A stretch of 64,000 nucleotides of DNA from Xanthocytophaga agilis. GTDB taxonomy: Bacteria; Bacteroidota; Bacteroidia; Cytophagales; 172606-1. The notes beneath the pieces are model-generated. The model was not told the DNA's origin and made no database searches. It saw only the letters and a program-made list of their open reading frames with translations. Both the position numbers and the translations under genes were made by a program. Below, in pieces: positions 13,262 to 29,953 of the stretch (positions are counted from its first letter, which is position 1; each line of letters begins with the position of its first letter). Location of the stretch: the NCBI RefSeq assembly GCF_030068605.1, contig NZ_JASJOU010000012.1, positions 248,001 to 312,000 of the forward strand, in the 5' to 3' direction.

Positions 13262-14848
13262 ATGAAGAAAATTATTATTCTAACAACTTTCTTCATGAGT
13301 ATCATGAAGCCAGTTGCTGCTCAAAAAAGTAATACAGATAAATCAGTAGAATACGCAAATACCATTACAGCTACTGATCTGGCTAAACACCTAAAGATTC
13401 TGGCTTCTGATAGTCTTCAGGGGCGCGAGACTGGAGAGCAAGGGCAAAAGATGGCAGCAGATTATATTGCAGAGCAATTTTTTAATGACCATTTGAAACC
13501 AGTAATGAAGCATGATGGTGAAGATAGTTATTTTCAGCATTTTGATCTGGTAAGAAAAAGTTGGGGTGAGGTATATATAGAAACAGGTACTAAGAGAAGA
13601 GAGTTTTTAAAAGATTTCTACTTACTTGGAGCATTATCTATTCCACAGGAAAAAAATGTAGAAGTAGTTTTTGGTGGTTATGGCATTGAATCTGAAAAAT
13701 ATTCGGATTACAAGAATATAAATGTCACAAATAAGGCCGTTCTAATCTTGAGTGGTGAACCTAAAAGTAAGAAAGGAAAGAGCTTAGTGACTGATAGCGA
13801 TAAACCATCAGAGTGGGCTAGTGACTGGAGAAAGAAAGTAACGCTGGCAAGACAAAAAGGTGCTGCATATGTACTGGTAATACAACCTGATGAAATGAAG
13901 GTAGGTACATTCATTGCGAACTACAGAGGTTATCTGACCAATCCCCGTTTAATTCTGAAATATAAAGATACTCCTACACAAGGTGACGGAACTATATTTG
14001 TATCCAAAGAGATGGCAGTAGAGATATTGGGAGTTTCTGAGAAAGCATTGGCAAAGTGGCAACGTAAGATAGCCAGAAAGAAAACCCCTAAGTCGTTCGC
14101 CATTGCTAATGTTGCCCTGAAGTTTGAAAATAAAGAGCAGATTGTTCAGTCAGAAAACGTATTGGGTTTAGTAGAAGGGACAGATAAGAAAGACGAAATT
14201 GTTATTGTCACCGCTCACTATGACCATGTGGGTATTATTAATGGCGAGATTCATAACGGCGCAGATGATGATGGTAGTGGTACTGTGGCGGTGCTGGAAA
14301 TAGCTCAGGCTTTTGCTGAGGCGAAGCGTAATGGAGATGGCCCTCGCCGGTCCATGTTATTTATGACTGTTGCCGGAGAAGAAAAAGGATTATTAGGTTC
14401 TGAGTACTATACAGATCATGCTGCACTTCCTTTGCAAAATACAGTGTGTGATTTGAATATAGACATGATTGGGCGAATTGATGAAGCACATACTGGAAAT
14501 CCTGATTATGTATATCTGATCGGTTCTGATAAGCTTTCAAGTAAACTTCATGCTATAAGTGAAGAGATGAACCAAAAATACAGCAAGCTTGCTCTTGATT
14601 ATAAGTACAATGATCCTTCTGATCCTAATCGATTTTACTATCGTTCAGACCATTATAACTTTGCTAGATACAAAGTCCCTGTAATTTTTTATTTCAATGG
14701 TACTCATGAAGATTACCATAGGCCAACAGATGACATTGAGAAAATTAATTTTGCAAAGATAGAAAAGATTGCCCGACTCGTTTTTCATACCGCATGGGAG
14801 GTTGCCAATCGTGAAGAGCGCATTAAAGTAGATAGTAACAAAAAATAA
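13262..14848 (+). CDS. Secreted M28 family zinc aminopeptidase
   Basis: 528 residues with a Sec signal peptide (residues 1-20, ending PVAAQ), so it acts in the periplasm or outside the cell. The dizinc ligands of the M28 fold are visible: HYDHVG with His319, NGADDDGSG at about 332-340, the catalytic GEEKGLLGSEYY, the Asp in NIDMIGRID, and a C-terminal His in NGTHEDYHRPTDD. Between about 100 and 270 an inserted region resembles a PA-type lid, as in other Bacteroidota members. Probably releases N-terminal residues from peptides for nutrition. A long hairpin terminator follows. Confidence 0.93.
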   Translation: MKKIIILTTFFMSIMKPVAAQKSNTDKSVEYANTITATDLAKHLKILASDSLQGRETGEQGQKMAADYIAEQFFNDHLKPVMKHDGEDSYFQHFDLVRKSWGEVYIETGTKRREFLKDFYLLGALSIPQEKNVEVVFGGYGIESEKYSDYKNINVTNKAVLILSGEPKSKKGKSLVTDSDKPSEWASDWRKKVTLARQKGAAYVLVIQPDEMKVGTFIANYRGYLTNPRLILKYKDTPTQGDGTIFVSKEMAVEILGVSEKALAKWQRKIARKKTPKSFAIANVALKFENKEQIVQSENVLGLVEGTDKKDEIVIVTAHYDHVGIINGEIHNGADDDGSGTVAVLEIAQAFAEAKRNGDGPRRSMLFMTVAGEEKGLLGSEYYTDHAALPLQNTVCDLNIDMIGRIDEAHTGNPDYVYLIGSDKLSSKLHAISEEMNQKYSKLALDYKYNDPSDPNRFYYRSDHYNFARYKVPVIFYFNGTHEDYHRPTDDIEKINFAKIEKIARLVFHTAWEVANREERIKVDSNKK

Positions 14849-14886
14849 ATGCAATAGTATAAAGAATAGGAAGCGTTCTCTTAAGG

Positions 14887-14928
14887 AAAAATAAAAGATC
14901 ATGTTATACTGCATGATCTTTTATTTTT
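14887..14928 (+). terminator. Terminator after the M28 peptidase gene
   Basis: Perfect 17-bp inverted repeat (14887-14903 with 14912-14928) with A-rich left and T-rich right flank. It lies 21 bases upstream of the next gene. Confidence 0.8.
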
Positions 14929-14949
14929 ATAACATATAGAAGTTGATAT

Positions 14950-15753
14950 ATGAAATATATTGTTTCCTTTCTAGCAATCTTATCATTCTTCTCTTGCAAT
15001 TCCACAAGAAAAGCTACTTCCCCTATTAACCAATATTATACGAATAATGTGGTTATAAATGAACAGAAGGATGTAACAATAAGTAAATCGTCAGGGGGCA
15101 AACTTATATTTGAAGGATCCAATAATCTGATTGAGGTAATTCAAAAAAATGTGACATTCTTTGATCAGTGCCATGATGTCATTATTATTCAAGGAAACAA
15201 TAATAGCATAAAGTTATATAATACCAATATAGTGGACCTCAGAGGAAAAGGATCTGACACATGCATCATTGTGGGCAATCATCAAAAGTATATTGTAGAC
15301 TTTGCTAATGCCATTCTTATTCAATCTAAACACATAAAGACAGATACTATAAAACTCAGTGAGCCGCTTTTTAAAATTGGAGAGTATAGTAATGACTTTC
15401 GGGAAAATGCAGACAGAGTTGTCACACTCAAGTATTTTAACGAACCTGTAAGCATTAAATACGCTTTTGACTACTTCACAGCTGAAATCAAATCGGGAAA
15501 TATTCAGTTTTATTATGAATTAGCAGAGCTTTATTTGTATGGAATTGGCACAGAGATATCTACTGCCAAAGCAATAAATCTATATGAATATGCAGCCGTA
15601 AAAAATCATGTTCTTTCCATCCGTCAGCTTGGAGATATATATGCGAATGGTACATTTGATTATCCCAAAAACTTAAAGCTAGCCGTTTATTATTATAAAG
15701 TTGGTAGTCAGCTTGGCGATACATATTGTAAGGATATGTTATCCAATAAATAA
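14950..15753 (+). CDS. Lipoprotein with DUF3060-like region and Sel1-like repeats
   Basis: 267 residues. A short lipoprotein signal ends at Cys16 (SFFSC). Residues about 30-110 consist of short beta strands with Asn-rich turns (FEGSNNLIEVIQ, IIIQGNNNSIKLYN, VDLRGKGSDTCIIVG), resembling DUF3060. The C-terminal third (about 180-265) shows Sel1-type helices: AELYLYGIGTEISTAKAINLYEYAA, then LGDIYANGTFDYPKNLKLAVYYYKVGSQLGD, where G-x-A/Y spacing fits a TPR-like solenoid. It probably mediates protein contacts in the periplasm. The combination of domains is unusual. Function unknown; exact domain borders were judged by eye. Confidence 0.7.
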   Translation: MKYIVSFLAILSFFSCNSTRKATSPINQYYTNNVVINEQKDVTISKSSGGKLIFEGSNNLIEVIQKNVTFFDQCHDVIIIQGNNNSIKLYNTNIVDLRGKGSDTCIIVGNHQKYIVDFANAILIQSKHIKTDTIKLSEPLFKIGEYSNDFRENADRVVTLKYFNEPVSIKYAFDYFTAEIKSGNIQFYYELAELYLYGIGTEISTAKAINLYEYAAVKNHVLSIRQLGDIYANGTFDYPKNLKLAVYYYKVGSQLGDTYCKDMLSNK

Positions 15754-15951
15754 TTGATTAGTTGTTAAGTGCATAAACATATATTCTTGTCAAAGATATA
15801 CCAGAACGGATTTTTGTTAAAAAACAAAATATTATTTTATTATAAGCAGAATAATAACTGTAAAATTCTAAAAACAAAATATTATTCGTTGCAAGCCTAA
15901 AGAACTTAAAAAATATACCGCGCTGAGTGAACAATTCCGCAGTGAAATCAG

Positions 15952-15959
15952 TATATTTG
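15952..15959 (+). promoter_or_regulatory. Putative -7 element for ilvE
   Basis: TATATTTG matches TAnnTTTG, 40 bases before the ilvE ATG. No good -33 element. Confidence 0.45.
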
Positions 15960-15999
15960 AAACATTCTCTATTTTTCATGTTTAAATAATAGACAGCGT

Positions 16000-17064
16000 A
16001 TGGTTGACACGCTCGCATTTCCTATAGAAAAGACAACACAATCCAGGTTGTCACAGGTAGATTTTACCAATCTTGGTTTTGGTAAGTACTATTCCGATCA
16101 TATGTTTATTGTGGAGTATGCAGAGGGAAAATGGCATAGCCCACGAATTATTCCTTATGGTGATCTAAGTCTTAGCCCTGCAACATCTGCTCTGCATTAT
16201 GGGCAAGCTGTCTTTGAAGGACTCAAAGCCTATAAAAATGCAGAGGGAGAAGTCCTTATTTTCCGTCCGGATGCTAATGCACAACGGTTAAATGCATCTG
16301 CAGAACGTCTGGCTATGCCAGCACTTCCTGAAGATATTTTTATCAATGGTCTGCAGCAACTGTTGACACTTGATAAAGATTGGGTTCCGGCAGCAGCAGG
16401 ACACTCTCTATATATTCGTCCATTTATGTTTGCTACTGACGCCTATACAGGTGTTCGTCCTTCTGAAACATATTACTTTATTATATTTACCTGCCCTGTA
16501 GGAGTATATTACAATAAGCCTGTTCGTGTAAAAGTAGAAACAGAATTTACCCGCGCAGCTAAGGGAGGTACAGGGGCAGCAAAAGCAGCGGGTAACTATG
16601 CAGCTTCTTTGCTACCGGCAACTCTGGCACAGAAAGCAGGCTATGATCAGCTTTTGTGGACAGATGCCAAAACGCACGAATACTTTGAAGAATCAGGAAC
16701 GATGAACGTTATGTTTGTGATTGATGGCAAACTGATCACTCCAGCAACGTCTGACTCTATTCTGAAAGGCATTACACGTGACAGCGTATTAAAGGTAGCT
16801 CAAAAGTTAGGTATCCCTACGGAAGAGCGGGCAGTAAGTGTGAAAGAAGTTATTGACGCCGCGAAAAACGGAACGCTACAAGAAGCATTTGGTGTAGGAA
16901 CAGCGGCAACTATCGCACCTATTGCAGTGATTGGGCATGAAGGAACTGACTATACGTTGCCAGCAGTAGAAAACAGAACAATTGCTCCTCGCATTCAAAC
17001 TGCATTGGATGATATTAAAACCGGAAAAGCAGCAGATCCATTCGGATGGATTCTGAAAGTCTGA
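16000..17064 (+). CDS. ilvE: Branched-chain amino acid aminotransferase
   Basis: Class IV PLP transaminase that makes or breaks down leucine, isoleucine and valine. At 354 residues it belongs to the longer type II subfamily. Visible motifs are LHYGQAVFEGLKAY, the Arg-rich YIRPFMFATD, the PLP-lysine segment GTGAAKAAGNYAASLLP, and YFEESGTMNVMFVIDG near the cofactor phosphate, then DSILKGITRDSVL. It stands alone, with its own putative promoter and a strong terminator shared with the convergent ABC cassette. Assignment is secure; a D-amino acid transaminase would be shorter. Confidence 0.95.
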   Translation: MVDTLAFPIEKTTQSRLSQVDFTNLGFGKYYSDHMFIVEYAEGKWHSPRIIPYGDLSLSPATSALHYGQAVFEGLKAYKNAEGEVLIFRPDANAQRLNASAERLAMPALPEDIFINGLQQLLTLDKDWVPAAAGHSLYIRPFMFATDAYTGVRPSETYYFIIFTCPVGVYYNKPVRVKVETEFTRAAKGGTGAAKAAGNYAASLLPATLAQKAGYDQLLWTDAKTHEYFEESGTMNVMFVIDGKLITPATSDSILKGITRDSVLKVAQKLGIPTEERAVSVKEVIDAAKNGTLQEAFGVGTAATIAPIAVIGHEGTDYTLPAVENRTIAPRIQTALDDIKTGKAADPFGWILKV

Positions 17065-17083
17065 TCCATTTGTTCTAATAAAT

Positions 17084-17121
17084 AAAAACGCCTCTGATTT
17101 ATTTAAGTCAGAGGCGTTTTT
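17084..17121. terminator. Bidirectional terminator between ilvE and the ABC ATPase gene
   Basis: Perfect 14-bp stem (17084-17097 with 17108-17121), loop of ten, A/T runs on both sides, between convergent genes. For the minus strand it marks the 3' end of the six-gene cassette. Confidence 0.85.
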
Positions 17122-17143
17122 ATTTACAAATATTGGATTAATT

Positions 17144-17962
17144 TTACAAATACAAGAAAAGATCTCTTACCTCATTAATTAAATCATTAAAGGCAGGTAT
17201 TTTCTTGATATCAGGCTGCCATGCCAGTCCACGTTCAATCAAGTCAAATGTATGTTTGATCTTTGCTCCGGGAATAATGTTATTCTGGGCATCTCTGTCT
17301 CTCCCCATAATCCAGAGTGTATCAGATATAGCAGCGGTTGAAACAATGTCATGTGATACAATAATAATGGTATTATGCTCATGTGCGTTGGATATCTCAC
17401 AAATCATCTCACTCACTTCATCCACCATATTGATGTCCAATCCTGAGAATGGCTCATCCATCAGTAAGAAGTTATCTGAGCACAACAATTGCTGAGCAAT
17501 AGCTATACGTTGCTTCTGTCCACCTGATAACTGAGCCGGATACATATTTGTATGCTGTCTGAGATGAAACCGATCCAGCATCTCAAAAATCTTATCTTTT
17601 CGTTTTTGTGGATCTGAAATAGTTTTCTTTGCGGCAATCTCCAGATTGCCCATCACTGTTCTGTGATGAAAGAGAGGATAGTTTTGCTGCACAACTCCCA
17701 TCCGGCCAGGAGCTACCAGCTTTTGAGCTTCCCCAACATATACTTCGCCAGAAGTAGGTTTCAGCAAACCTGCCATAATTTCAAACAATTTTGTCTTTCC
17801 TACACCTGAAGGTCCTAGAAAGCCTACTACTTGTCCCTGTGTCATACCGGGACGAACAATGTTTTTAATTTCAGCATTTACATTCTGGAGAATTATTTTA
17901 TTATCCAGTGTAAGACTTACATTATCTATTTTTAAAATGCATTCATTCTTAGAGTATTCCAT
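17144..17962 (-). CDS. ABC transporter ATP-binding protein (last gene of the six-gene cassette)
   Basis: 272-residue ABC ATPase of the nitrate/taurine/sulfonate class. All catalytic parts are intact: Walker A GPSGVGKT (50-57), Q-loop VVQQNYP (Gln92), signature LSGGQKQR (145-152), Walker B FLLMDEP (Asp169, Glu170) and switch His204 in IVSHD. It starts 43 bases after the permease gene, its obvious partner. The cassette has no ordinary free or lipoprotein binding protein; the only candidate is the OmpA-fused protein encoded at 18917-20704. A working pump energised by this protein is therefore likely, with substrate unknown. Confidence 0.93.
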   Translation of the reverse strand: MEYSKNECILKIDNVSLTLDNKIILQNVNAEIKNIVRPGMTQGQVVGFLGPSGVGKTKLFEIMAGLLKPTSGEVYVGEAQKLVAPGRMGVVQQNYPLFHHRTVMGNLEIAAKKTISDPQKRKDKIFEMLDRFHLRQHTNMYPAQLSGGQKQRIAIAQQLLCSDNFLLMDEPFSGLDINMVDEVSEMICEISNAHEHNTIIIVSHDIVSTAAISDTLWIMGRDRDAQNNIIPGAKIKHTFDLIERGLAWQPDIKKIPAFNDLINEVRDLFLYL

Positions 17963-18005
17963 TTCCTGTCTGTCAAATATTTGTATGTAATCACGAGCAG
18001 AGTAC

Positions 18006-18794
18006 TTATTTCTCTACAGTAAGTGAACTATAAGGCAAGAAAAATTCTTTCATTTGTCCAATTCCCCAATCCAGTAAAATACCTATCAGCAAGATGACAA
18101 ACTGAATAGCAAAAACAGCATCCAGGTGTAAGTACTTTTGTTGATTGAGTAATAAAGGTCCAATCCCGCCCTCAGAACGAGAGATTCCTTCTACTAATGT
18201 TAGCATAGTCCAGCTAATGGCAAAAGTCTGGCGGATTACTTCAAAAACCTGATCCAGCCGTCCTAAAACTATTATCTCCCATACCACTTGCCACTCATTC
18301 ATGCGCAATGTACGTGCATGATAAAATTCATACTTGGGCACTGATTGGATAATGGATACCATTGCAGTGACAAAAAATACAGTGATACCAAACACCATTA
18401 AAGATGTTTTCAGACTGCTGCTTCCACTCGTCATTTGGGTAAAAACAAACGACAAACCCACCAGTGTTAAGAAACGACCTTTTGAAATAAGGAAACCAAT
18501 AGGTTTGAAAAATGGAATTACAGTAGCATAGGCAATCAGAAGCGAGATAACAATAGCAATACCCATAGCCTTGATACATAACCATGTACTCGTCCACAAC
18601 TCATACGCCAGATTTTGTTCCTGAAATAAGCGTCCCAAGGCTTTTATAATCTCTACAGGAGTTGGAAAAATAGTTGACTTACTGGCAAACCAAATTACCA
18701 GGAATACAACCACTTGTAGTACAATCATTAGGGTAATAACAGACCTGTTATTCCTGGAATTAGGAATAAACAAAGGTTTTATTTGAGTAAGCAT
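18006..18794 (-). CDS. ABC transporter permease (BPD_transp_1 family)
   Basis: 262 residues from the ATG at 18794 (the frame extends upstream to 18839, but the product there would begin with an unlikely Cys-rich lead). About six membrane helices. The cytoplasmic coupling loop is recognisable as WQVVWEIIVLGRLDQVFEVIRQTFAISWTML-like sequence, ending in EGISRSEGGIGPLL, the usual position of the EAA motif of TauC/SsuC/NrtB-type permeases. Gene lies between the OmpA-fusion gene and the ATPase. A 14-bp hairpin lies in the gap upstream. Import is inferred from family; the substrate cannot be read. Confidence 0.88.
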   Translation of the reverse strand: MLTQIKPLFIPNSRNNRSVITLMIVLQVVVFLVIWFASKSTIFPTPVEIIKALGRLFQEQNLAYELWTSTWLCIKAMGIAIVISLLIAYATVIPFFKPIGFLISKGRFLTLVGLSFVFTQMTSGSSSLKTSLMVFGITVFFVTAMVSIIQSVPKYEFYHARTLRMNEWQVVWEIIVLGRLDQVFEVIRQTFAISWTMLTLVEGISRSEGGIGPLLLNQQKYLHLDAVFAIQFVILLIGILLDWGIGQMKEFFLPYSSLTVEK

Positions 18795-18867
18795 ATTTTC
18801 AGATTTGTAATAGTGTATAACACAACACTGAAAGAGCAAAGAAGGAAGTATAGCTAGGAGGTTTAAT

Positions 18868-18909
18868 GTATCCTATCTGAGAATAGAAGAATTTACTCAG
18901 ATAGGATAC
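18868..18909 (-). other. Hairpin between the OmpA-fusion and permease genes
   Basis: Perfect 14-bp inverted repeat (18868-18881 with 18896-18909) with a 14-base loop, directly after the stop codon of the OmpA-fusion gene. No T-run follows on the minus strand, so it is more likely an RNA-stability or processing element than a terminator. Confidence 0.6.
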
Positions 18910-18916
18910 TGAAATT

Positions 18917-20704
18917 TTATTTACCCATGACAATAGTCACACGGCGGTTTTTGGCTTTGTTCTCAGGCGAGTTGTTGGGTACTATGGGTTGAGTCTGCCC
19001 ATGTGCAAAAACCTGTACACGTCCTTGTGGGAAGTTATTAGGAGATTTTTGTTCCATCCACTGTTTTACAGCAAAGGCACGTTCTTCAGACAGATTCATA
19101 TTCTTACTAGGATCGCCAGTGTTATCTGTATGCCCATGAATTTCTACCCGCAAATTGTTAGCTACAACCAGATCATTAAACAATTCATTTAATGTTTTTT
19201 CAGTCTGAGGAGTAAAGGAGGCCTTTCCACTCTCAAACTCAATACTCCATGACTTCTCTGATACTTTCTCTTTAATATTTGCATCATTCGTGAATGCCAC
19301 TGTTTCAGCAGCAGAAACATTGCTTCCAGCTTTAGCAATAACATCTTTCAGATAGCTTACTTCTATTACATCATCAGATTTAGGATAAGAAGGCATTAAC
19401 TTTGGATAAAGTTTAGATGCTACCCCTCCAAACAAATCATATACAATCTTCACCACATTGGTACTTCCAGGGTTTAATCCGAAGATTTCTGCATTATCAC
19501 CCAGGTTATGTACTGCAGATCCACCCAGGTCTACCACCAAACCCTGCTTATCTGCAGACTGTGTACCTTTATAATATTTTACCCAATACGCCTTATCGGC
19601 TTCATTATATACCTTAGCAGATAGTTCCCCCGCTTTATCCAATGCCGCAGAGTAAGACTTTACCTGATCTCCACCTTCTGCAATCCCTTCGATCATTTTT
19701 TCTACTGTTGGGCGATTATCTTCCATATATTTCTTAATACCAATCAATACACAAGGCATTTGGCTACGATACTCTTTAGTAGATACAATCGAAACCAGAC
19801 CACCTTTTTTCTCAGCAATATTTACATCACCAGGAGTCCAGGTTGCTACCCCATTGACAGATACACGTTTCTTTTCTCCGGTGCGTTTGCCATTCTGGAC
19901 TACTTCACGATCTTCTGAGTAGCCTGCAATGTATTTTTCAGCGGCATCCAAGTAGTTATCGGCTGCCACAAAGTTCATAGCGTCCGGATCATAAGTAGTT
20001 TCATCCGGATTGACACGAATGCCATTGTCCCCACACCATTTTACTACAATATTCCAGTCACCATCACGAAGTACAGCAGCCGTTAATCCGCCTTTAGCAG
20101 ATTGAGGATTATCTCTCCAGGAAGGAAGACCCATAAACTTGTCTTCACCCAGCGATTTTCCACAAGTATATATAATCTGGGCACGGTAATCAGGACCTAT
20201 CTTTTCCAGCTCGGGATTCACTCCGGACAAGAACGCCGCTGCCCCATCCCCCATAATAGTTACAAAGTGTGCTCCTTCTGGAGTACTCGGATTGCTTTTA
20301 TATTCATTGGCAAATTTGATCAACGACGCCTGCATTTGGGGAACATCATCCTGACGAGTAATTTTCAGGTTTACTCCTTTTTTAGCCATAATAGACCCTT
20401 CTGTGGTCTCAGAACCTCCATTTGCCAGAATAGCTCCCATCTGTGCATTCCATGCCCACATGAGCCAGCGTACTTGTGGTGAGTTTAGATTAGCAGGTTT
20501 TTCTCCGGGTAGAGACATTGCTTGCACAGTACTGGAGGCGTTTTTAGGAGCCGTTGGCAAATCAACTTTACCAACATCCTGAGAGGTTGTTAGTTGTTTT
20601 GTCATTACATAGCCACTATCCATGATAAGCCATTTAAGGCCCCAAAGACCAGCCAGAATTAGGGCAACAATGGTAATTCTACCTAGAGGTGTTAAGCGTT
20701 TCAT
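18917..20704 (-). CDS. Membrane-anchored substrate-binding-like protein fused to OmpA domain
   Basis: 595 residues. A single N-terminal membrane helix (about 8-29; LTPLGRITIVALILAG) anchors it; there is no lipobox. Residues about 75-450 resemble periplasmic type 2 binding proteins of the PstS/taurine group by general pattern (VRWLMWAWNAQMGAILANGG, IMGDGAAAFLSGV, LVSIVSTKEYRSQMPCVLIGIK). Residues about 485-595 are an OmpA C-terminal domain: EIHGHTDNTGD, NLSEERAFAVKQWME and PENKAKNRRVTIV, which hold the Asp and Arg that bind peptidoglycan diaminopimelate. It thus seems to tie ABC substrate capture to the cell wall. The same anchor motif occurs in the gene upstream. It lies in the cassette before the permease gene. 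Confidence 0.8.
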   Translation of the reverse strand: MKRLTPLGRITIVALILAGLWGLKWLIMDSGYVMTKQLTTSQDVGKVDLPTAPKNASSTVQAMSLPGEKPANLNSPQVRWLMWAWNAQMGAILANGGSETTEGSIMAKKGVNLKITRQDDVPQMQASLIKFANEYKSNPSTPEGAHFVTIMGDGAAAFLSGVNPELEKIGPDYRAQIIYTCGKSLGEDKFMGLPSWRDNPQSAKGGLTAAVLRDGDWNIVVKWCGDNGIRVNPDETTYDPDAMNFVAADNYLDAAEKYIAGYSEDREVVQNGKRTGEKKRVSVNGVATWTPGDVNIAEKKGGLVSIVSTKEYRSQMPCVLIGIKKYMEDNRPTVEKMIEGIAEGGDQVKSYSAALDKAGELSAKVYNEADKAYWVKYYKGTQSADKQGLVVDLGGSAVHNLGDNAEIFGLNPGSTNVVKIVYDLFGGVASKLYPKLMPSYPKSDDVIEVSYLKDVIAKAGSNVSAAETVAFTNDANIKEKVSEKSWSIEFESGKASFTPQTEKTLNELFNDLVVANNLRVEIHGHTDNTGDPSKNMNLSEERAFAVKQWMEQKSPNNFPQGRVQVFAHGQTQPIVPNNSPENKAKNRRVTIVMGK

Positions 20705-20775
20705 CTTGTATGAAAAGAGTTAAACAGTATAGATTATGTATAGGCAATAGATTTTTAAAATTCATCCGGTAAAAA

Positions 20776-20814
20776 ACCCCAAACTTTTCAAAAAGAATGT
20801 GAAAAATTTGGGGT
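20776..20814 (-). terminator. Intrinsic terminator or attenuator inside the cassette
   Basis: Arms ACCCCAAACTTTTCA (20776-20790) and TGAAAAATTTGGGGT (20800-20814) pair with one mismatch. Read on the minus strand it is followed by a run of six T, directly downstream of the Ppx-like gene, so it may reduce expression of the genes that follow. Confidence 0.65.
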
Positions 20815-20838
20815 GAGGTTGTCATTTGTAATGATTTA

Positions 20839-21870
20839 TTATTTGGTATTTGATAAAAGGAAACCTATAGTAAAGTTAGCATCCCAGTCAAATACAAATT
20901 GCTTGCATTCAGTGGCATCCGCAATAGCTTTATAGATATTTACACCAGCTTTATCTTTAGCTTCGCTAGGATTATAATCGCCAGGAGCCTTCAATACGGT
21001 ATATCTTTCTTTTCCATTTCGTACTTCTTTGGCCAGTTTAAAAGGAGCACCTCCAATAATAAAGCATGTTTTTCGGTATCCTTCTGGCACTTGTTTCGCT
21101 TTTGCGACTATTTCATCATATACTTTCTGGTCATCAACGCCATTCTGAAAATATTTGGCACCATAGCTTTCCAGCGATTTAATTTTTCCGTTTTCTTTCC
21201 ATGAGATTTTTGTATTGCCAGACCCGATATCTACTACAAAAGCTCTGTCTTCATATACTGGAGGCAGTACAGCCTGCAAACCCATAGTTCCTTCTTCTTC
21301 TGCTGTCACTACATTCACATAATAATTCAGACTTTTCAATTCCTTTGTGATCTTTTGGGTTACCTCTGCTTTAGCAGCTCCGGAACTTACCACAAAGTGA
21401 ATATCTTTAGGACTTACCCCATAATCCAACATTGTACCAATGTATTTCTTTAAGCCACTTCGTATATCTTCCTGAGAAGCCATATTCTCAGTAACTAAAC
21501 TATTCCCAAATTCAGCTTTCTCCAATTTCCAATTTTTGTCTGCATCTGCTTTCACAATAAAAGAATTAAATCCGCTTGCACCCATTTCTACGACACCTTT
21601 CAGCTTACCATTGGTAGGAGCAGGAGGCTCATAAGAAAACGAAGAAGCCCCAGAAGAAGCAGACGTTGCTTCAGTACTACCAGAAGATTCCGGCTCTTTT
21701 TCTGTTGCTGTTCCATCTGCAGGATTAGCATCAGAAGAAGTTTCTACCTGTTCTGTTTTTGTTCCACCTCCAATAATTCCTTTATTTTTTAATGCTATGT
21801 AGCCACCAGCAATAGCTGCAATGATGATAGCCACGATTGTAAATCTTCCAAAAGAAGTTAATTGAGCCAT
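20839..21870 (-). CDS. Membrane-anchored Ppx/GppA-like actin-fold protein
   Basis: 343 residues. An N-terminal membrane helix (about 8-26, LTSFGRFTIVAIIIAA) is followed by a low-complexity Ser/Thr/Glu/Pro linker (38-85). The rest follows the order of exopolyphosphatase/GppA enzymes: MGASGFNSFIV (96-106, phosphate-1 like), VVSSGAAKAEV (160-170, like TSALR.A), TAEEEGTMGLQ (189-199, like the SGEEEA glutamate motif), DIGSGNTKISW (214-224, in place of DIGGGSTE), and IIGGAPF (271-277). The domain is shorter than true Ppx and lacks the C-terminal region. It may be a phosphatase or only a nucleotide or polyphosphate sensor. Whether the body faces the periplasm is unknown. It stands second to third in the cassette. 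Confidence 0.65.
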   Translation of the reverse strand: MAQLTSFGRFTIVAIIIAAIAGGYIALKNKGIIGGGTKTEQVETSSDANPADGTATEKEPESSGSTEATSASSGASSFSYEPPAPTNGKLKGVVEMGASGFNSFIVKADADKNWKLEKAEFGNSLVTENMASQEDIRSGLKKYIGTMLDYGVSPKDIHFVVSSGAAKAEVTQKITKELKSLNYYVNVVTAEEEGTMGLQAVLPPVYEDRAFVVDIGSGNTKISWKENGKIKSLESYGAKYFQNGVDDQKVYDEIVAKAKQVPEGYRKTCFIIGGAPFKLAKEVRNGKERYTVLKAPGDYNPSEAKDKAGVNIYKAIADATECKQFVFDWDANFTIGFLLSNTK

Positions 21871-21934
21871 GTTAGGTTAAATTAGGTTTGCAATAGGATA
21901 CTCAGAAATATAATAGTCTATTAATTTCTCTTTT

Positions 21935-21976
21935 AAAGAAAAGCCCTGCCCAAAACAAGACAGGGACGTTTTCTTT
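21935..21976 (-). other. Hairpin between the PspA-like and Ppx-like genes
   Basis: Imperfect inverted repeat: AAAGAAAA...CCCTG on the left (about 21937-21950) and CAGGGACGTTTTCTTT on the right (about 21961-21976), with a small bulge. It lies right after the stop of the PspA-like gene and may be a weak terminator. Confidence 0.45.
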
Positions 21977-21989
21977 AAATTTCATTATC

Positions 21990-23009
21990 TTAATCAAATA
22001 ATTTGTTATACTGATTGGTGTTATGAGGAGGACGGTTAACGGGTGCATCCAGATCAATATACTTGTTTGGATTGTTTCCTTCTGCAATAAGAACTTGCTT
22101 CTGGTCACCCAACAGGAAGGAAATACCTTCTTTTTCCCATTGATCCAACATTTCCAGACCTTTCTCTTCATATACACCATTTTGTAAGTCGATAGATTCC
22201 ATGAAGTTGGCAGACAGTTCCATAAAACGTTCCATCTCCCCTACCTTACGGCTCACATCATCTGCAATAGCCTCCATTGCCTGATCAAACATTAATCGCT
22301 TATCTTTATCTCCAGAGATAATGTTAAGAGCAGATTTCATGGCAGAGTGACTATTTCGAATGGCTTCACGCTCTATTTTCTTTACCTGTACCTGATCTTC
22401 AATATCTTCCAACAGAATACCTGAGTTTTCAAACATTTTTGTTAAAACTCTGTACAGGATCTCCATCTTCTTATACAAATCCCCAAGCTTCATATTAGAC
22501 TCCTGTAAACGACCTGCTTTACGGGTTTTCAGAATCATCTGAGCTTGACTACCTTTCTGTTTAGCTTTATTGGCAAGTGCCAGACTATCATTCATGGTTC
22601 GCTCATTCTGAGTCATCAGATCTTTCAGTTTCCGCATTTGCCCACGTAGACTCTGAATCTGACGATCCATTTTGCTCAGGTTTCCTCTCAGGCTATCAAT
22701 ATATGATTCCAGGATTCCAATAGGATCTATTTGAACAAACAAACCTGTAATAAACCGCATAATACTTTTGTATAAGTACCATACTAATGTCCGGAACTTC
22801 GGATCAAAAAGAATGTATAGCACTATCGCTAAGCCTGCTAACAGGAAAATAGTATACAATGTATTCTCAAGCAGTGTAATGATATAAGGAAGTGCTTTGT
22901 ATAACAGATATCCTCCTCCTCCTATTATGGCTGCCATGAATAACTTTCCGGTTGTACCTTCTGGTTTTTCCCAAAATGATTTGGGTTTCATTGAGTCTAA
23001 TGAGTTCAT
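21990..23009 (-). CDS. Membrane-anchored coiled-coil protein, PspA/Vipp1-like
   Basis: 339 residues. Two hydrophobic helices (about 22-48 and 50-68) precede a long, charged helical region (95-300). The segment IDPIGILESYIDSLRGNLSKM (94-114) resembles the DPxxxLxxYIxxLExNL start of PspA/IM30 proteins, and the spaced A-x-G-x-A-x-x-L-x-x-R pattern at 145-165 also fits. PspA proteins are ESCRT-III relatives that shape and protect membranes; unlike them this one has membrane anchors. The C-terminus is Asn/Pro-rich and probably disordered. It is the second gene of the cassette. Confidence in the coiled coil and anchors is high, in the PspA kinship moderate. Confidence 0.6.
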   Translation of the reverse strand: MNSLDSMKPKSFWEKPEGTTGKLFMAAIIGGGGYLLYKALPYIITLLENTLYTIFLLAGLAIVLYILFDPKFRTLVWYLYKSIMRFITGLFVQIDPIGILESYIDSLRGNLSKMDRQIQSLRGQMRKLKDLMTQNERTMNDSLALANKAKQKGSQAQMILKTRKAGRLQESNMKLGDLYKKMEILYRVLTKMFENSGILLEDIEDQVQVKKIEREAIRNSHSAMKSALNIISGDKDKRLMFDQAMEAIADDVSRKVGEMERFMELSANFMESIDLQNGVYEEKGLEMLDQWEKEGISFLLGDQKQVLIAEGNNPNKYIDLDAPVNRPPHNTNQYNKLFD

Positions 23010-23146
23010 CGTTGAATGTGCTATTTTTACTATTAATGGATAAAATCCTGTCAGGTAACCTTATATACAGATAAAACTTGTTATTATCCAACTACCATCT
23101 CCAGATTGCAGATAATCAATACTTGAGATTATTACATTTCACTTTG

Positions 23147-23818
23147 TCATTTCAGGAATCGCTCAATATTGGCAATATCATTCTGAATTTGTCCCATTAC
23201 AGCCTCAAGAGTAACATAGAAGTTGTTTTTGGTTGTTTCAATTTTGGTAGCAGCTTCAGTTATTACACTTTGGGCTTTATTCATTTCTTCCTGATGAGCA
23301 GTAATTTCTTCTGTTAGCTTCTTTATCTGCTCTGCTTTCTGTTGAATAAGAGTTTGCAAACGCTCTGCTTCCTTTTGCTTTGCAGTTACATTCAAATCTA
23401 CCTGTTGTACAACAGCTTTATCAAAATTATCTTTTTCCCTCGATAATATTCCCTGATAAAATTTTGCACTATCTACCAGCTTTTCAACTGTTAATCCCAT
23501 AGTCGCAGCGGTAGCATAGGCAGATTTATATCGTGTAGATTCATCAGGAATTATAGTAGCCAAAGTTTGTAATGAATTCTTAAACTCCAGAAAATCAAAT
23601 CCTGGTTGATTATTATCTTCCAATGCTTTCAGCAAAGAGTCAAAGATTCGCTGATCAACTCCTCCGGGTATTGTTGGTGTATTCTGTGGTACTGGTGGAG
23701 GTGTTTGATTGGAAGTTGTTTTTTGTTGTGTCGCCTGTGGTTGCTGCTGAACAGACTGATTGTCTGTACTGGTTTCATCTACAATAAAAAGCGACTTAAT
23801 ATTCTTGAATACACTCAT
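23147..23818 (-). CDS. Coiled-coil protein with Gln/Pro-rich N-terminus (first gene of the cassette)
   Basis: 223 residues, no signal peptide or membrane segment. Residues 20-52 are rich in Gln, Thr and Pro (QQQPQATQQKTTSNQTPPP), residues 55-130 look globular (IFDSLLKALEDNNQPGFDFLEFKNSL), and 130-220 form a long coiled coil (AKQKEAERLQTLIQQKAEQ, KLTEEITAHQEEMNKAQSV). It is probably cytosolic. It precedes the membrane-anchored coiled-coil gene by 137 bases and would be the natural cytosolic partner. No family was recognised with confidence. The start ATG at 23818 is the first in the frame. Confidence 0.7.
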   Translation of the reverse strand: MSVFKNIKSLFIVDETSTDNQSVQQQPQATQQKTTSNQTPPPVPQNTPTIPGGVDQRIFDSLLKALEDNNQPGFDFLEFKNSLQTLATIIPDESTRYKSAYATAATMGLTVEKLVDSAKFYQGILSREKDNFDKAVVQQVDLNVTAKQKEAERLQTLIQQKAEQIKKLTEEITAHQEEMNKAQSVITEAATKIETTKNNFYVTLEAVMGQIQNDIANIERFLK

Positions 23819-24128
23819 ACAATTTTTTCGCGTTTATAGGAATAGCTCTTATCCTTTCGGAATCTACTTGGTAAATATAAAGAAATGCTATTGAATGCAT
23901 TTACAACGTTTTTCTTAAATACCTGACATTAAGGTAAATATTCTTTATTTGAAAAACAAAGGTGGGGAAAGTTATACTATTTATACTACAAATAAAGCAT
24001 TTAGACTTTGCCAATTTGTAAAATTTGTCTTATAGCGGATGTAAGTTCAGAGTTAATCAGGATAAAACAACCCTATAATCAGCCTAATGTATGTGATTGC
24101 TTTTATGAATAGTATTTACACAAAAAAT
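23819..24128. other. Interval upstream of the six-gene cassette
   Basis: 310 bases, AT-rich, between the minus-strand thioesterase gene and the cassette's first gene. It must hold the cassette promoter, but I find no TAnnTTTG match, repeat or hairpin. Confidence 0.4.
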
Positions 24129-24569
24129 TTACAGACTTGTTTTGATTGAAGTAGCGACAAAATTAGAGGTTCCTTTTGCAAGTAATTTATTCTGCTCATT
24201 AGTCAGTTGGCATTCTACATTAATTAATGTTTTCCCATTGCGTACAACTCTGGTCTTTGCATAAATGGTTTCTCCTTCTTTAGCATTATCCAGAAAATCG
24301 ACAGTAAGACTAACCGTTACATACACAAATTCCTTTCCTAATGCATAGACTGTCATACCCATTACATCATCAATAATAGCAGAGGCGGCCCCACCATGCA
24401 ATATTCCCAAAGGATTGGTCATATCTTTACGTACCACAAACGAGACTGTCATTTCACCTTCCTTTACATCCACAAAAGTTCCATTAAGCCAGTTTCCTAA
24501 ACTGGCAGAAGATTTTTCGACAGACTTTCCTATCTGAGACTGAAAGTATTCGAGGATAGAATCAGGCAT
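24129..24569 (-). CDS. PaaI-type hotdog thioesterase
   Basis: 146-residue single hotdog domain of the PaaI/YbgC type that hydrolyses acyl-CoA thioesters in the cytosol. The conserved NPLGILHGGAASAIIDDVMG (HGG with the following Asp) forms the active-site helix, and the following VTVSLTVDFLDNAKEGETI and ARTKVVRNGKTL-like strands complete the fold. The acyl substrate cannot be told; phenylacetate genes are absent. The next gene (GNAT) ends 38 bases upstream on the same strand, so the two may be cotranscribed. Family is secure. Confidence 0.9.
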   Translation of the reverse strand: MPDSILEYFQSQIGKSVEKSSASLGNWLNGTFVDVKEGEMTVSFVVRKDMTNPLGILHGGAASAIIDDVMGMTVYALGKEFVYVTVSLTVDFLDNAKEGETIYAKTRVVRNGKTLINVECQLTNEQNKLLAKGTSNFVATSIKTSL

Positions 24570-24607
24570 AAAGTATTGATTAAAATCCGGAGTTTATAGA
24601 TTGGAAT

Positions 24608-25168
24608 TTATTTACGTATATTCCACACAACAACAGCCCAGTTTTCATCATTGGGAGCTGTATATTCATGAATGGATTCAAAACCCACTCTACGATGAGC
24701 ATTCATAGAACGTTGATTACGGGTAGCCACCTCTGTAACGCATAGTTCATAGCGATCTTTTAATTGTTCTTTCTGTCCCAGATAAAGCTGGTCAAAAAGT
24801 CCCTGCCCACGATATTGTTCATCAATACAGATTTGTCCCATTACATAATAGTGGTAATCTGATAATACCTTATTCGAAAGATATATCTGAGACAACATGG
24901 CAAACATAGGCTCCAGCACAGGAATAGATTGTCTAAACTCTTTGAGCATAACCAGGGCATAGCCAACGATCTTTTCTCCATCTCTGGCTACAATCTGTGG
25001 TTCTGCCTGATTCATCTGTTTTAGCAGATCAAATGTATGTTCTACCGTTACGAAGCCCTGACTTTCGATGGTCTGAGGAGAGTTATTCCGGGCAAGATTT
25101 TTATGTTGAAGCTTTAGTAATTGCTCAATTTCATCATCTGTGCTTAACGTGGTGATGATAACAGACAT
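24608..25168 (-). CDS. GNAT family N-acetyltransferase
   Basis: 186 residues. The GNAT motif A is seen in ICIDEQYRGQGLFDQLYLG with the acetyl-CoA pyrophosphate loop RGQGL, preceded by IVGYALVMLKEF and followed by ATRNQRSMNAHRRVGFESI, the typical Asn/His-xx-VGF end. The acceptor is unknown. It lies between the exported small membrane protein gene (upstream) and the thioesterase gene (downstream) on the same strand, with short gaps of 29 and 38 bases, suggesting a small operon. Confidence 0.9.
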   Translation of the reverse strand: MSVIITTLSTDDEIEQLLKLQHKNLARNNSPQTIESQGFVTVEHTFDLLKQMNQAEPQIVARDGEKIVGYALVMLKEFRQSIPVLEPMFAMLSQIYLSNKVLSDYHYYVMGQICIDEQYRGQGLFDQLYLGQKEQLKDRYELCVTEVATRNQRSMNAHRRVGFESIHEYTAPNDENWAVVVWNIRK

Positions 25169-25197
25169 AAGGTTAACTATGTATTGGTTTTGATGGT

Positions 25198-25719
25198 TTA
25201 TTTTTCATCCTCTACTTCATCTTCTGGCTCTTTCTCAAGTTGCTTGGCATCAAATCGCCATTTGCCTCTTACATTGTATCTGTTATGCATCAACAGCCGT
25301 GTCCCATAAATACCTGCCTGAACCAAGCCAGAACCAAAAAATGCAGCACCCAAAGGGAAGACCCATGCACCCTGAAAGATTCCCGCAAATAAAATCACTC
25401 CACCCACTGTAGCAGAAATCATCCCCAACGCAAACTTCAGGCCTCTCCCATTCTCACTAACAACAGCCAGACTGTCTATGATTACAGAATGCCCATTGGT
25501 AAGGAAAGTATTTTTGGTAATCTGCGTTATAACACCCGTTTCAAAGAATGAAGAATTGTTCAATCGAAAAGTTATGCGATCTCCTACAAAAAAATATTTT
25601 TCCAATCGTTTGTTCTTGCGTTTAGTCAGTACTAATGCATCCTGTGCATCTGCAATCTGAGCAAATGCACATACACAAAAGAGACTAAATGTAATTATGT
25701 ATCTGGGATGTAAAGGCAT
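25198..25719 (-). CDS. Exported small membrane protein of unknown function
   Basis: 173 residues. An N-terminal signal peptide (cleavage likely after ADA at 24-26) is followed by a basic stretch, a beta-rich region (FFVGDRITFRLNNSSFFET, IDSLAVVSENG), two hydrophobic helices at about 95-140 and an acidic C-terminus (KEPEDEVEDEK). I recognise no family. Related envelope proteins with this layout are common in Cytophagales. It may form an operon with the following GNAT and thioesterase genes. Confidence 0.7.
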   Translation of the reverse strand: MPLHPRYIITFSLFCVCAFAQIADAQDALVLTKRKNKRLEKYFFVGDRITFRLNNSSFFETGVITQITKNTFLTNGHSVIIDSLAVVSENGRGLKFALGMISATVGGVILFAGIFQGAWVFPLGAAFFGSGLVQAGIYGTRLLMHNRYNVRGKWRFDAKQLEKEPEDEVEDEK

Positions 25720-25915
25720 AATTGTATAGGAAAGAATATGGTGTTTCTAGAGTAAAGCGAATTCTATAGTTTTACAAGTTGGCTTGATTCCTTGAATTTA
25801 TATGTGAGTTTTATGAAACAGAACTCAATTATACAAATTTTCAGGATTAACCGAGTTTTTAGGCAAGATTTATAAATGAAATCTATATACAAAGTTTGTA
25901 ATGTACAATAACAAA

Positions 25916-25972
25916 CCATATCACAATAATAGCCAATCAGAAATCTTCTAATTAGCTATTATTGTGATATGG
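25916..25972 (-). terminator. Strong hairpin downstream of the TIM-barrel gene
   Basis: Perfect 18-bp inverted repeat (25916-25933 with 25955-25972), loop of 21, and on the minus strand followed by TTTGTTATT. It lies 56 bases after the stop of the TIM-barrel gene. It is one of the longest stems here. Confidence 0.75.
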
Positions 25973-26027
25973 TAAGATTTTAATAAGAATTAACCCGGCA
26001 GATTAAACTTCTTATTTGTGATTGCTC

Positions 26028-26990
26028 TCATTTCTTTCCTTTTGTCTTCCCACTTGTAGCTGCTGCTGGTTTAGGTAAGAAGCTATCTGTTTCAACATAC
26101 GCATTAAATAAAGCGATTTCACCTTCTTTTCCAGGTTTTGCATTACCATGTTCCATACCTAATATTCCCTGCCAGCCTTTTTCGTGAATATGTTTAAAAA
26201 TATTCTTATAGTTCATCTCGCCAGATGTAGGCTCTTTACGTCCTGGATTGTCACCAATCTGCAAATAGCCTATCTCTGACCATGTACGATCTAAGTTTGT
26301 AATAACATCACCTTCATTACGCTGCATATGATACATATCAAACAATATCTTGCAGGCTGGACTATTTACTGCACGACAAATCATATAGGTCTGATCAGAG
26401 TTTCTTAGAAATAATTCAGGCGTATCACTCAATGGTTCTAATACCATAGTTAATCCATGAGGTGCCAATATTTCAGATCCCTGGCGTAGTGCATCAATCA
26501 CATTGCCGGTCTGAATACCTATTGGGATATGTCTTTCAAAAAATCCAGGTACTACAGTCATCCACTTGGCATTACATCTTTTGGCTACTTCTACTGCTGT
26601 CCGGCAAGTTTTTAGAAATGTATCTTTAAATTCCTGTTTGCCTGTTGTCAAAGAGATTTTCCAGTTATCACCTCCATCTATTACAAACACCCCCATAGTC
26701 ATCCCATATTTCGCTAATGTCTCACCAATCTTTGTCTGTATCTCTGGTGTACGTCCCATCATGCCGTTATCCTCTATGGCAGTGAATCCAAGTTCTGACA
26801 TTACCTTAAGCTGATCAAACAAATCTTTGCCTGCCAGGTTTTCAAACATACCAAAATGAGGAGCATATTTTAGATTGAATTTATTTTTAGCTGGAAGAGG
26901 ATTGTCATCACCGGCAACTTGTGCAGGAATATTTATTCCGGCTACTCCCGCAACAGCCAGACTTTTTTTAACAAAATCACGACGAATCAT
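26028..26990 (-). CDS. Tat-exported sugar phosphate isomerase/epimerase-like TIM-barrel protein
   Basis: 320 residues. The N-terminus has a Tat-type signal (RRDFVKKSLAVAGVAGI), so it is probably exported folded. The rest is an AP_endonuc_2/xylose isomerase-like TIM barrel: FTAIEDNGMMGR, MTVVPGFFERHIPIGIQTG, VLEPLSDTPELF, ILFDMYHMQRNEGD and GMEHGNAKPG, with Glu, Asp, His and Glu expected as metal ligands. It is closest in pattern to hydroxypyruvate isomerase-like proteins common in Bacteroidota. The C-terminal tail is Lys-rich. The substrate is unknown; the gene stands alone with a strong hairpin downstream. Confidence 0.85.
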   Translation of the reverse strand: MIRRDFVKKSLAVAGVAGINIPAQVAGDDNPLPAKNKFNLKYAPHFGMFENLAGKDLFDQLKVMSELGFTAIEDNGMMGRTPEIQTKIGETLAKYGMTMGVFVIDGGDNWKISLTTGKQEFKDTFLKTCRTAVEVAKRCNAKWMTVVPGFFERHIPIGIQTGNVIDALRQGSEILAPHGLTMVLEPLSDTPELFLRNSDQTYMICRAVNSPACKILFDMYHMQRNEGDVITNLDRTWSEIGYLQIGDNPGRKEPTSGEMNYKNIFKHIHEKGWQGILGMEHGNAKPGKEGEIALFNAYVETDSFLPKPAAATSGKTKGKK

Positions 26991-27287
26991 AAGTGAAAGA
27001 AAAATAAGTGGTGTGTAATTTTTGTGAGTAAAAATAGTATGTTTTTGATAAATGCCATGAGTAGAACAAAAGATTTGAGTAATAGAGTGAAGTAATTATG
27101 TTTCCTCTTTATGCTATTTTGTGCAAATCTTCCAATTACTAGCCTGAACAAAACAGTCTTTATGTCTGTTCATATAAATGTCAGTTGAAAATAAATAACG
27201 ATTTCTGTATTTTTACAGACCAACCCAAATTAATACCATTTTATAAGCTAATATTCATTTTTCATTCACTCAAAGTACTAGAAGCGT

Positions 27288-28241
27288 TTGGTAGAAAAAG
27301 TAATCACATTAGAAGATGTTTCCCTGATTGATTTTTTAGGGGTAGAAAATTCAAATATCAAAGAAGTAGCTGCGGCATTTCCCAATAGCCGTATTATTTC
27401 AAGAGGTAATGAAATTCGCATCAAGGGTACTACACCCGAAATCATTAAGATCAGCGATATTCTGAATGCTTTACTTGAGCACTATCATAAATTTGGTAAT
27501 ATTACTCAGGAAAGCATCCAAAACTATATTCGTCAGGAAGAAGATGTAGTTGTTCCTAGTCTGGCTCTTGATAATGATATTCTGGTGTATGGTACCAAAG
27601 GACTGATCATCAAGGCCAAGACTGCCAATCAAAAGAAATTGGTAGCAACTGTAATGGAACATGATCTGGTTTTTGCATTGGGACCGGCAGGGACTGGTAA
27701 GACATATATATCAGTAGCTATGGCTGTCAGGGCTTTGAAAAATAAAGAGGTAAGAAAAATTATCATTACCCGGCCAGCAGTAGAAGCAGGTGAAAATTTA
27801 GGTTTTTTGCCCGGAGATCTCAAAGAAAAAATAGATCCGTATCTCCGACCTATTTATGACGCACTCGATGATATGATACCACCAGAGAAATTGAAACAAT
27901 ATCTGGAGAATCGTGTGATTGAGATTGCACCATTAGCTTATATGCGTGGACGTACACTGCATGATGCCTTTATCCTACTTGACGAAGCTCAGAATACAAC
28001 ACCTATGCAGATCAAAATGTTTTTGACACGTATGGGACCTAATTCGAAAGTGATTATCACAGGAGATCAATCACAGGTAGACTTGCCTAATCGTCAGAAG
28101 TCTGGATTAAGCGAGGCATTACATATATTGCGCAATGTATCTGGAATTGGATTTGTAGAACTCGATACACGGGATGTGGTTCGTCATAGACTGGTAAAAG
28201 CCATTATTGATGCCTATGATAAGGCTGAAAAGTCTATTTAA
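27288..28241 (+). CDS. phoH: PhoH family ATPase
   Basis: 317-residue cytosolic P-loop ATPase of the PhoH group. Walker A is GPAGTGKT (132-139), ITRPAVEAGENLGFLPGDL follows, then FILLDEAQNTT (Walker B) and sensor ITGDQSQVDLP; a KH-like N-terminal region precedes the ATPase domain. PhoH proteins are linked to RNA metabolism and stress. The start is a TTG at 27288: an in-frame stop (TAG at 27279) lies just upstream, and MVEKVITLEDVSLIDFLG is the normal family N-terminus, so a TTG start is the only reasonable choice. A hairpin follows the gene. Confidence 0.94.
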   Translation: MVEKVITLEDVSLIDFLGVENSNIKEVAAAFPNSRIISRGNEIRIKGTTPEIIKISDILNALLEHYHKFGNITQESIQNYIRQEEDVVVPSLALDNDILVYGTKGLIIKAKTANQKKLVATVMEHDLVFALGPAGTGKTYISVAMAVRALKNKEVRKIIITRPAVEAGENLGFLPGDLKEKIDPYLRPIYDALDDMIPPEKLKQYLENRVIEIAPLAYMRGRTLHDAFILLDEAQNTTPMQIKMFLTRMGPNSKVIITGDQSQVDLPNRQKSGLSEALHILRNVSGIGFVELDTRDVVRHRLVKAIIDAYDKAEKSI

Positions 28242-28286
28242 TTACACTATCTTATACTTTTGAAGTAGTTACACTGTTGTTTAGTT

Positions 28287-28322
28287 CTTCCAGAATGATT
28301 AACATGGTAAATCATTCTGGAA
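28287..28322 (+). terminator. Terminator after phoH
   Basis: Perfect 14-bp inverted repeat (28287-28300 with 28309-28322), loop of eight, 45 bases after the stop. Confidence 0.65.
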
Positions 28323-28368
28323 GTATATTTATGTCCCGAATTTACTATATACTCTTATCCTATTTTTT

Positions 28369-29691: not shown

Positions 29692-29953
29692 CGACCTTTT
29701 TACTTTGTTATTGATACAATCTACTATTGCTATAAACTTTTCTGTACCAATCTGAGTTATTCCTTTACTCACTCACTATAGATTAAAGATTTTTTACATC
29801 CAAACTGAAAGCTGACAGGCCTTTTCTCTACAAGGTCTCACAATAGCTTATTTTCATAAGACAGGTTATCAAAAAACATAAAAAAACAGTATCTTTCTAA
29901 AAGACAGTCTATTGTCTAATATTTCTACTAAACTTTCAACCAATATATAAGCT

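Follow-up and report, generated by a model that had tools for sequence, protein, structure and literature searches.

Genes for PspA-type proteins have already been reported next to genes of an ABC transporter. In the neighbourhoods described by Ravi et al. (2024, mSystems, PMC11237479), homologues of PspA and of a transmembrane (TM) Snf7 protein neighbour an AAA+ ATPase, an ABC ATPase, a permease and a PBPB-OmpA protein. The main text of that paper proposes a link between membrane remodelling and solute transport, and describes as unknown the way in which assembly is regulated for PspA homologues that lack an AAA+ partner. A related cassette of six genes lies at positions 17144-23818, on the minus strand, of a 64,000-nucleotide stretch of Xanthocytophaga agilis DNA (contig NZ_JASJOU010000012.1, positions 248,001 to 312,000; hereafter the window). 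Its genes, called A to F from the upstream end, encode a coiled-coil protein (A), a PspA/ESCRT-III-like protein (B), a Ppx/GppA-like protein (C), a binding protein fused to an OmpA domain (D), an ABC permease (E) and an ABC ATPase (F). As in the arrangement of Ravi et al., the ABC ATPase, the permease, the binding-protein/OmpA fusion and a TM-bearing PspA/Snf7-type protein stand together. Unlike that arrangement, the window has no AAA+ gene of that kind in the cassette or in the ten flanking genes scanned, C is added, and the two halves of the set are often found at two loci.

The words GppA, Ppx and ASKHA have 0 occurrences in the main text of PMC11237479, and C might stand in its Table S3, Text S2 or web application. 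In the literature searched (supplements, preprints and most subscription papers lying outside the search), only that paper describes the gene set, and no description of a set including C was found. The earlier note on this DNA, which knew of no described system of this kind, was partly wrong on this point: Ravi et al. describe some of it, and C, an anchor common to C and D, the form without AAA+ and the split halves go beyond their main text. We regard the cassette as a recurring system, largely foreshadowed in print, for which C, the common anchor, the split arrangement and an exchange of transporters were not found described.

That the genes belong together is supported by their co-occurrence in other genomes. 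The surveys covered Bacteroidota, with 395 phylum genomes, 59 order genomes and 13 loci bearing D (L032-L044), a fourteenth D locus being that of X. flavus. B was found in 13 of the 13 genomes of L032-L044 and C in 12, against a phylum background of 12 genomes with B, 8 with C and 8 with D among the 395. Fisher tests of the 13 genomes against this background gave p values of 2e-18 for B and 2e-17 for C; these, like the p values that follow, treat the genomes as independent, yet the genomes are related. The two Emticicia form a near pair, as do G446/G447 and G444/G445, and G456 and G005 look like the same assembly (B and C coordinates equal). In the unbiased samples, B was associated both with D (p 5e-7 among 395 genomes, p 1.4e-6 among 59) and with C (p 5e-7 and p 2.6e-5). 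Every genome with D had B, that is 8 of 8 in the phylum sample, where three divergent B were counted by position, and 8 of 8 in the order sample, where one D was a variant. For the pairs B-D and B-C the co-occurrence is far beyond chance, which bears out the proposal of the earlier note that these genes form one set, in which a PspA-like protein and an ABC ATPase are linked with the inner membrane and with peptidoglycan.

In 12 of the 13 genomes, neither A nor B lay beside D, and all 12 carried both B and C elsewhere. A adjoined B in 11 of these split genomes, and in the twelfth B lies 176 bases from a contig end; A-B-C were contiguous in five (two Emticicia, Fibrella, a Cytophagales and a Rudanella metagenome-assembled genome, MAG). 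The remaining locus, L042, from an unclassified MAG, has A-B beside D and lacks C. It had been anticipated that homologues found mostly apart would point to chance clustering. A-B(-C) and D-E-F do stand apart in 12 genomes, but all 12 carry both.

Conservation of gene order, the check that had been proposed, was observed for D-E-F, whose order was kept in 20 of the 20 related loci whose contigs span all three genes, including a variant in genome G052. Three loci that end inside D (L040, L041, L043) are not in this count, and L044 (G005), whose D has stops, is only described. A-B adjoin D in 11 of the 20 loci, namely X. flavus (with C between), L042, L045-L049, L094 and L104-L106. The X. flavus locus has the same six genes in the same order, with protein identities of 97-100%. 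The three flavobacterial loci L104-L106 have the arrangement of Ravi et al., with an AAA+ gene after F. It adjoins F in L105 and L106, and in L104 a single inserted gene separates the two. AAA and AAA_lid_6 are matched by the product from L105, with which the other two products share 95% and 56% identity. Other genomes have A-B-C without D-E-F (G034, G049), A-C (G016) or, in several cases, A-B alone, and several families show A-B-C or A-B-D-E-F again. The A and B of G052 share 46-48% and 66-69% identity with those of the window, and in this genome D, E and F are replaced by a different type of binding protein (PF09084) with a different ABC pair. The pairing of A-B with a transporter thus survives exchange of the transporter. 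For this variant, NMT1-type D, looked at in 22 genomes, the G052 copy itself was the one full-length match among those listed.

The history of the complete cassette was approached with quick trees. The D of the window groups with Emticicia (Shimodaira-Hasegawa-like approximate likelihood ratio, SH-aLRT, of 99), and its B lies near genomes with A-B only and G052, apart from the other A-B-D-E-F loci, in trees made with no bootstrap and with long branches flagged. In genome G002, of the same genus and 72% complete, A, B and C are neighboured by the thioesterase gene known from the window, other genes lie past C, and no D was found. The simplest reading is that D-E-F came to adjoin A-B-C within Xanthocytophaga; alternatively, G002 may have lost D-E-F.

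D (18917-20704, minus strand) consists of an N-terminal anchor, a disordered linker, a type-2 binding-protein domain (residues ~70-470) and an OmpA peptidoglycan-binding domain (~480-595). The OmpA domain (PF00691) scored 70.4 bits, and D527 and R542, the Asp and Arg that hold peptidoglycan, were present in 16 of 16 sequences. An AlphaFold2 model of D had a predicted local distance difference test score (pLDDT) of 88, with values below 50 in the linker (residues 27-58). Its binding domain superposed on TauA (6ssy, Z 26.2, root-mean-square deviation 3.6 over 290 residues), and also on CmpA, SsuA and NrtA. By its build, D-E-F is therefore a nitrate/taurine-class ABC unit whose binding protein is doubly tethered. 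It resembles the importers TauABC, SsuABC, NrtABCD and CmpABCD, which form the NitT/TauT class, in the fold of D and in the relatives of its permease and ATPase, and differs from them in that D is anchored in the membrane and fused to OmpA.

E (minus strand) was called from a TTG at 18839 (18006-18839). Its homologues begin, as judged by eye, at the ATG at 18794, which is the more likely start; the gene would then span 18006-18794, encode 262 residues and be separated from D by 122 bases. E has five hydrophobic segments and a sub-threshold match to BPD_transp_1 (E 4e-5, 23.8 bits, cut-off 26.4), and the sole NCBIfam models that match it, SaoP and TauC, both do so far below their cut-offs. F (17144-17962, minus strand) has a Walker A motif, LSGGQ and an SHD H-loop, and matches ABC_tran with 92.4 bits; its AAA_21 match is to the same ABC domain.

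C (20839-21870, minus strand; 343 residues) combines an N-terminal anchor with a Ppx/GppA-like ASKHA domain. It matches PF02541 (Ppx-GppA) above the cut-off (29.1 against 27 bits), so that this domain call of the earlier note stands along with those of OmpA in D and ABC_tran in F, and the C family profile retrieved the Aquifex exopolyphosphatase Ppx (1t6d, E 5e-4). Active-site residues were placed through the Aquifex alignment and motifs, with reference to the E. coli Ppx sequence. According to PMC5417653, the E. coli exopolyphosphatase mutated at E121, D143 and E150 has residual activity only, and the yeast signalling protein Rtg2p carries Q165 at the E150 position; PMC11234463 places D7, E114, D136 and E143 in the catalytic core of a Deinococcus enzyme. 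In 10 of 10 sequences, C keeps the equivalents of E121 and D143 (E193 and D214) and has a lysine, K221, at that of E150. The position of the Mg-binding Asp appears to be E95, placed by motif only. C thus shares with the Ppx/GppA phosphatases the family match and two of these residues, and departs from them in the Glu to Lys change, in its membrane or lipoprotein-type anchor and in being too short for their C-terminal domains. A role in sensing a ligand is more probable for it than that of a simple exopolyphosphatase. Because of this lysine and of the TauA/SsuA/NrtA/CmpA fold of D, the role in phosphate or polyphosphate response put forward earlier appears weak; nor does the fold of D support a phosphate transporter.

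In four relatives of C, from two genomes, the start was judged by eye to be a lipoprotein-type signal with Cys at its end. This is an argument for a domain on the periplasmic side, and that of C is probably periplasmic. The first 40 residues of six of the six TM-anchored C proteins covered by this test match a profile of the D anchor with E from 1e-12 to 5e-4, the best of 170 controls with hydrophobic N-termini reaching only E 0.009. In two further genomes, C and D are matched to each other by blastp along roughly a tenth of the length of D. An anchor common to C and D suggests a common membrane partner.

B (21990-23009, minus strand; 339 residues) has an N-terminal membrane region that would fit two passes. 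Two hydrophobic segments (Kyte-Doolittle value of at least 1.4) were found in 18 of 19 B relatives, the first segment of the window's B being weaker (1.32). PspA_IM30 is the Pfam family that the largest number of B relatives match (8 of 19 with a limit of E 1, the best reaching 4.2e-8). B is thus close to the PspA/IM30 and Vipp1 family by the Pfam matches of its relatives and, weakly, by fold, and differs from it by the N-terminal membrane region. A Foldseek search with the B model gave VIPP1 (7o3w) at rank 1 with a probability of 1.00, followed by arfaptin BAR domains and ESCRT-III proteins, PspA itself coming at rank 36, and nothing scored below E 0.01. Against the PDB, the profile of B gave nothing but weak matches, coiled coils among them, with E no better than 0.0065, and P0003 alone gave none. 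A PspA/ESCRT-III-like fold, in PspA and Vipp1 a long helical hairpin, is therefore indicated by the model, not settled, and the PspA identity of B rests on its relatives plus the weak fold match. A (23147-23818, minus strand; 223 residues), the presumptive partner of B, has a conserved start, FKxLKSLFIV, a low-complexity linker and a helical domain, and no hydrophobic segment. Its single Pfam match above cut-off, PDS5 (29.5 against 27 bits), spans linker and coiled coil and is absent from the families listed as common to at least two A relatives; we take it as coiled-coil similarity. Unlike the classical Psp response, the six genes and the ten flanking genes scanned (13262-31054) give no match to PspB, PspC or PspF; no further PspA-type gene and no AAA+ ATPase was found among those ten flanking genes either, the P-loop matches of a PhoH gene being set aside.

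Taken together, we tentatively favour, at just short of an even chance, one envelope system in which a PspA-like coat is governed by C together with an ABC unit tethered to the wall. The N-terminal region of B would hold it in the inner membrane, with its helical domain probably cytoplasmic, and B would probably polymerise into a membrane-shaping coat with A as its partner. D would be fixed between its membrane anchor and the peptidoglycan gripped by its OmpA domain, and C would sit nearby on the same type of anchor, its probably periplasmic domain carrying an altered active site. Ligand binding to D, and perhaps to C, while these are held between membrane and wall, would set the ATPase cycle of the ABC unit, and this cycle would control assembly or disassembly of the B coat. 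A solute or the state of the wall would thereby be read outside and turned into an ATP-driven change of the membrane coat inside; in the flavobacteria, the added AAA+ ATPase may share this control. Loci without AAA+ make the ABC ATPase a candidate for regulating PspA-like assembly. The fuller proposal, an ESCRT-III-like coat driven by a wall-tethered ABC transporter instead of a Vps4-type AAA+, with the altered Ppx/GppA protein as periplasmic sensor on the common anchor, we hold to be rather unlikely. If true, it would answer the question raised in the main text of Ravi et al. (2024) on PspA assembly without an AAA+ partner. The cassette itself gives an association so far covered in a single bioinformatic paragraph the shape of a system with defined parts. 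It offers a testable route by which cell-wall or solute state could be coupled to ESCRT-III-like remodelling without a dedicated AAA+ ATPase, and brings up a family of probably periplasmic Ppx/GppA-like proteins. Genomes that have only A-B, A-B-C or A-B-D-E-F can serve as natural knock-outs, and G052 as a natural exchange of the transporter.

Several observations, besides the relatedness of the genomes, weigh against a single system. C was not associated with D in the unbiased samples (1 of 395 genomes, p 0.15; 3 of 59, p 0.2), and therefore goes with A-B, and with the branch of D to which the copy in the window belongs, rather than with every D. No clear C was found in six D-bearing lineages (G018/G035/G050, G055, G304, three flavobacteria, G052 and L042), the flavobacterium G254 giving one match of 27% identity (E 1.7e-6). 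Many genomes, the family members G003 and G007 included, have B and C but no D, so that A-B-C can do without D-E-F. A hairpin between B and C may split the transcript. B itself has no passing Pfam match and does not match PF04012 (PspA_IM30) at E up to 1, its model, a helical body, is of middling confidence (pLDDT 67), and the E value of its VIPP1 match is weak (0.011). Lastly, A, B or both were assigned mainly by position in L045-L047 and L104-L106, with weak similarity for A (E 0.001 in L045, 6e-4 in L046, 2e-4 in L104, 0.002 in L105, not significant in L047) and for B (E 0.008 in L104, 0.003 in L105, not significant in L106).

Alternatively, D-E-F may be an ordinary small-solute importer, with a binding protein tethered for speed, and A-B(-C) a separate envelope-maintenance set that the same genomes tend to retain. 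An importer would fit the fold of D, the relatives of E and the motifs of F. The two halves lie at different loci in 12 genomes, A-B and A-B-C exist without D, and C and D show no association in the unbiased samples. We nevertheless consider this explanation doubtful, though a real possibility: no genome with D lacked B in any of the three samples, the three divergent B of the phylum sample being counted by position, and in G052 A-B adjoin a different transporter whose substrate-binding protein is also fused to OmpA. It may also be that no transport takes place: D and C would then sense ligands or mechanical state between membrane and peptidoglycan, with the ABC pair as the ATPase that signals to the PspA-like coat. 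The tethering of D at both ends with a disordered linker, its conserved OmpA residues and the changed active site of C would agree with such sensors, but E resembles a transporter permease by sequence, and the invariant residues of D do not discriminate, since the 61 of 83 that fall in the binding domain barely exceed what the length of that domain would give; we regard this possibility as quite unlikely.

Chance clustering of unrelated modules in Xanthocytophaga could explain why adjacency of all six genes was seen only in this genus, in the window genome and X. flavus, why the D and B trees place the parts of the window with different loci, and why the incomplete G002 has A, B and C with no D found. 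It is contradicted by the presence of B in 13 and C in 12 of the 13 genomes with D, by the B-D and B-C associations and by the recurrence of A-B-C and of A-B-D-E-F in several families, so that we hold it to be very improbable.

Other origins and members were tried and set aside. Matches to phage defence systems in PADLOC came from the OmpA domain of D (ZorB), F along its signature and ATP-binding stretches (mad3, E 1.8e-22, among others), the coiled coil of A and, weakly, C (mad4, E 0.03), and PHROGs matched D only, in its OmpA part. For spread by plasmids, tblastn with D hit 362 plasmid records; coverage of D reached 80% in none of them, and the 40 matches listed span residues 414-594 only; B had no plasmid match. 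The best AAA+ match in the window's own genome, a frame of 877 codons with two AAA+ stretches, lies on contig C1, and the window belongs to C12. In 29 of 59 relatives, AAA+ matches reached E 1e-10 or better, the weakest being probably other AAA+ families. Because such matches are common in relatives and the frame is not near the cassette, it was not assigned to the system.

The six genes are co-directional, as first described, and the coordinates of the open reading frames (ORFs) as called give gaps of 137 (A-B), 119 (B-C), 134 (C-D), 77 (D-E) and 43 bases (E-F), every one below 140. A thioesterase gene (24129-24569) lies upstream of A, and a class IV aminotransferase gene (16000-17064) lies beyond F on the opposite strand. 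The hairpin between B and C (21943-21965, minus strand; -13.4 kcal/mol, z -3.7), a possible terminator with a T-rich tail, is identical in sequence in the X. flavus locus (L031), whose proteins are 97-100% identical to those of the window. Terminator-like sites in the region are in chance number, as were those in scans of two other A-B-C loci. The motif TAnnTTTG was not found upstream of any of the six genes, and Rfam (gathering thresholds) and tRNA scans of the window found nothing.

Some related loci show further variation. At L049 (478-5449), A and B near those of the window are accompanied by an NMT1/THI5-type binding protein fused to OmpA and by another permease and ATPase. In L044 (5989-9741), from a MAG of a family relative (G005/G456), D, E and F are broken, and B likewise, by sequencing error or decay. 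G363 and G143 each carry two lipoprotein-type C copies (L083, 6386-7342 and 12116-13024; L084, 6535-7476 and 12204-13166), with no A match, and no B match in the phylum search. G002 has an ORF of 155 residues with a lipoprotein-like start between A and B (L159, 5028-5495). In G004, a C-A pair directly follows VWA, PP2C and protein-kinase genes (L165, 2637-8254), an arrangement that resembles the TerY-P stress triad.

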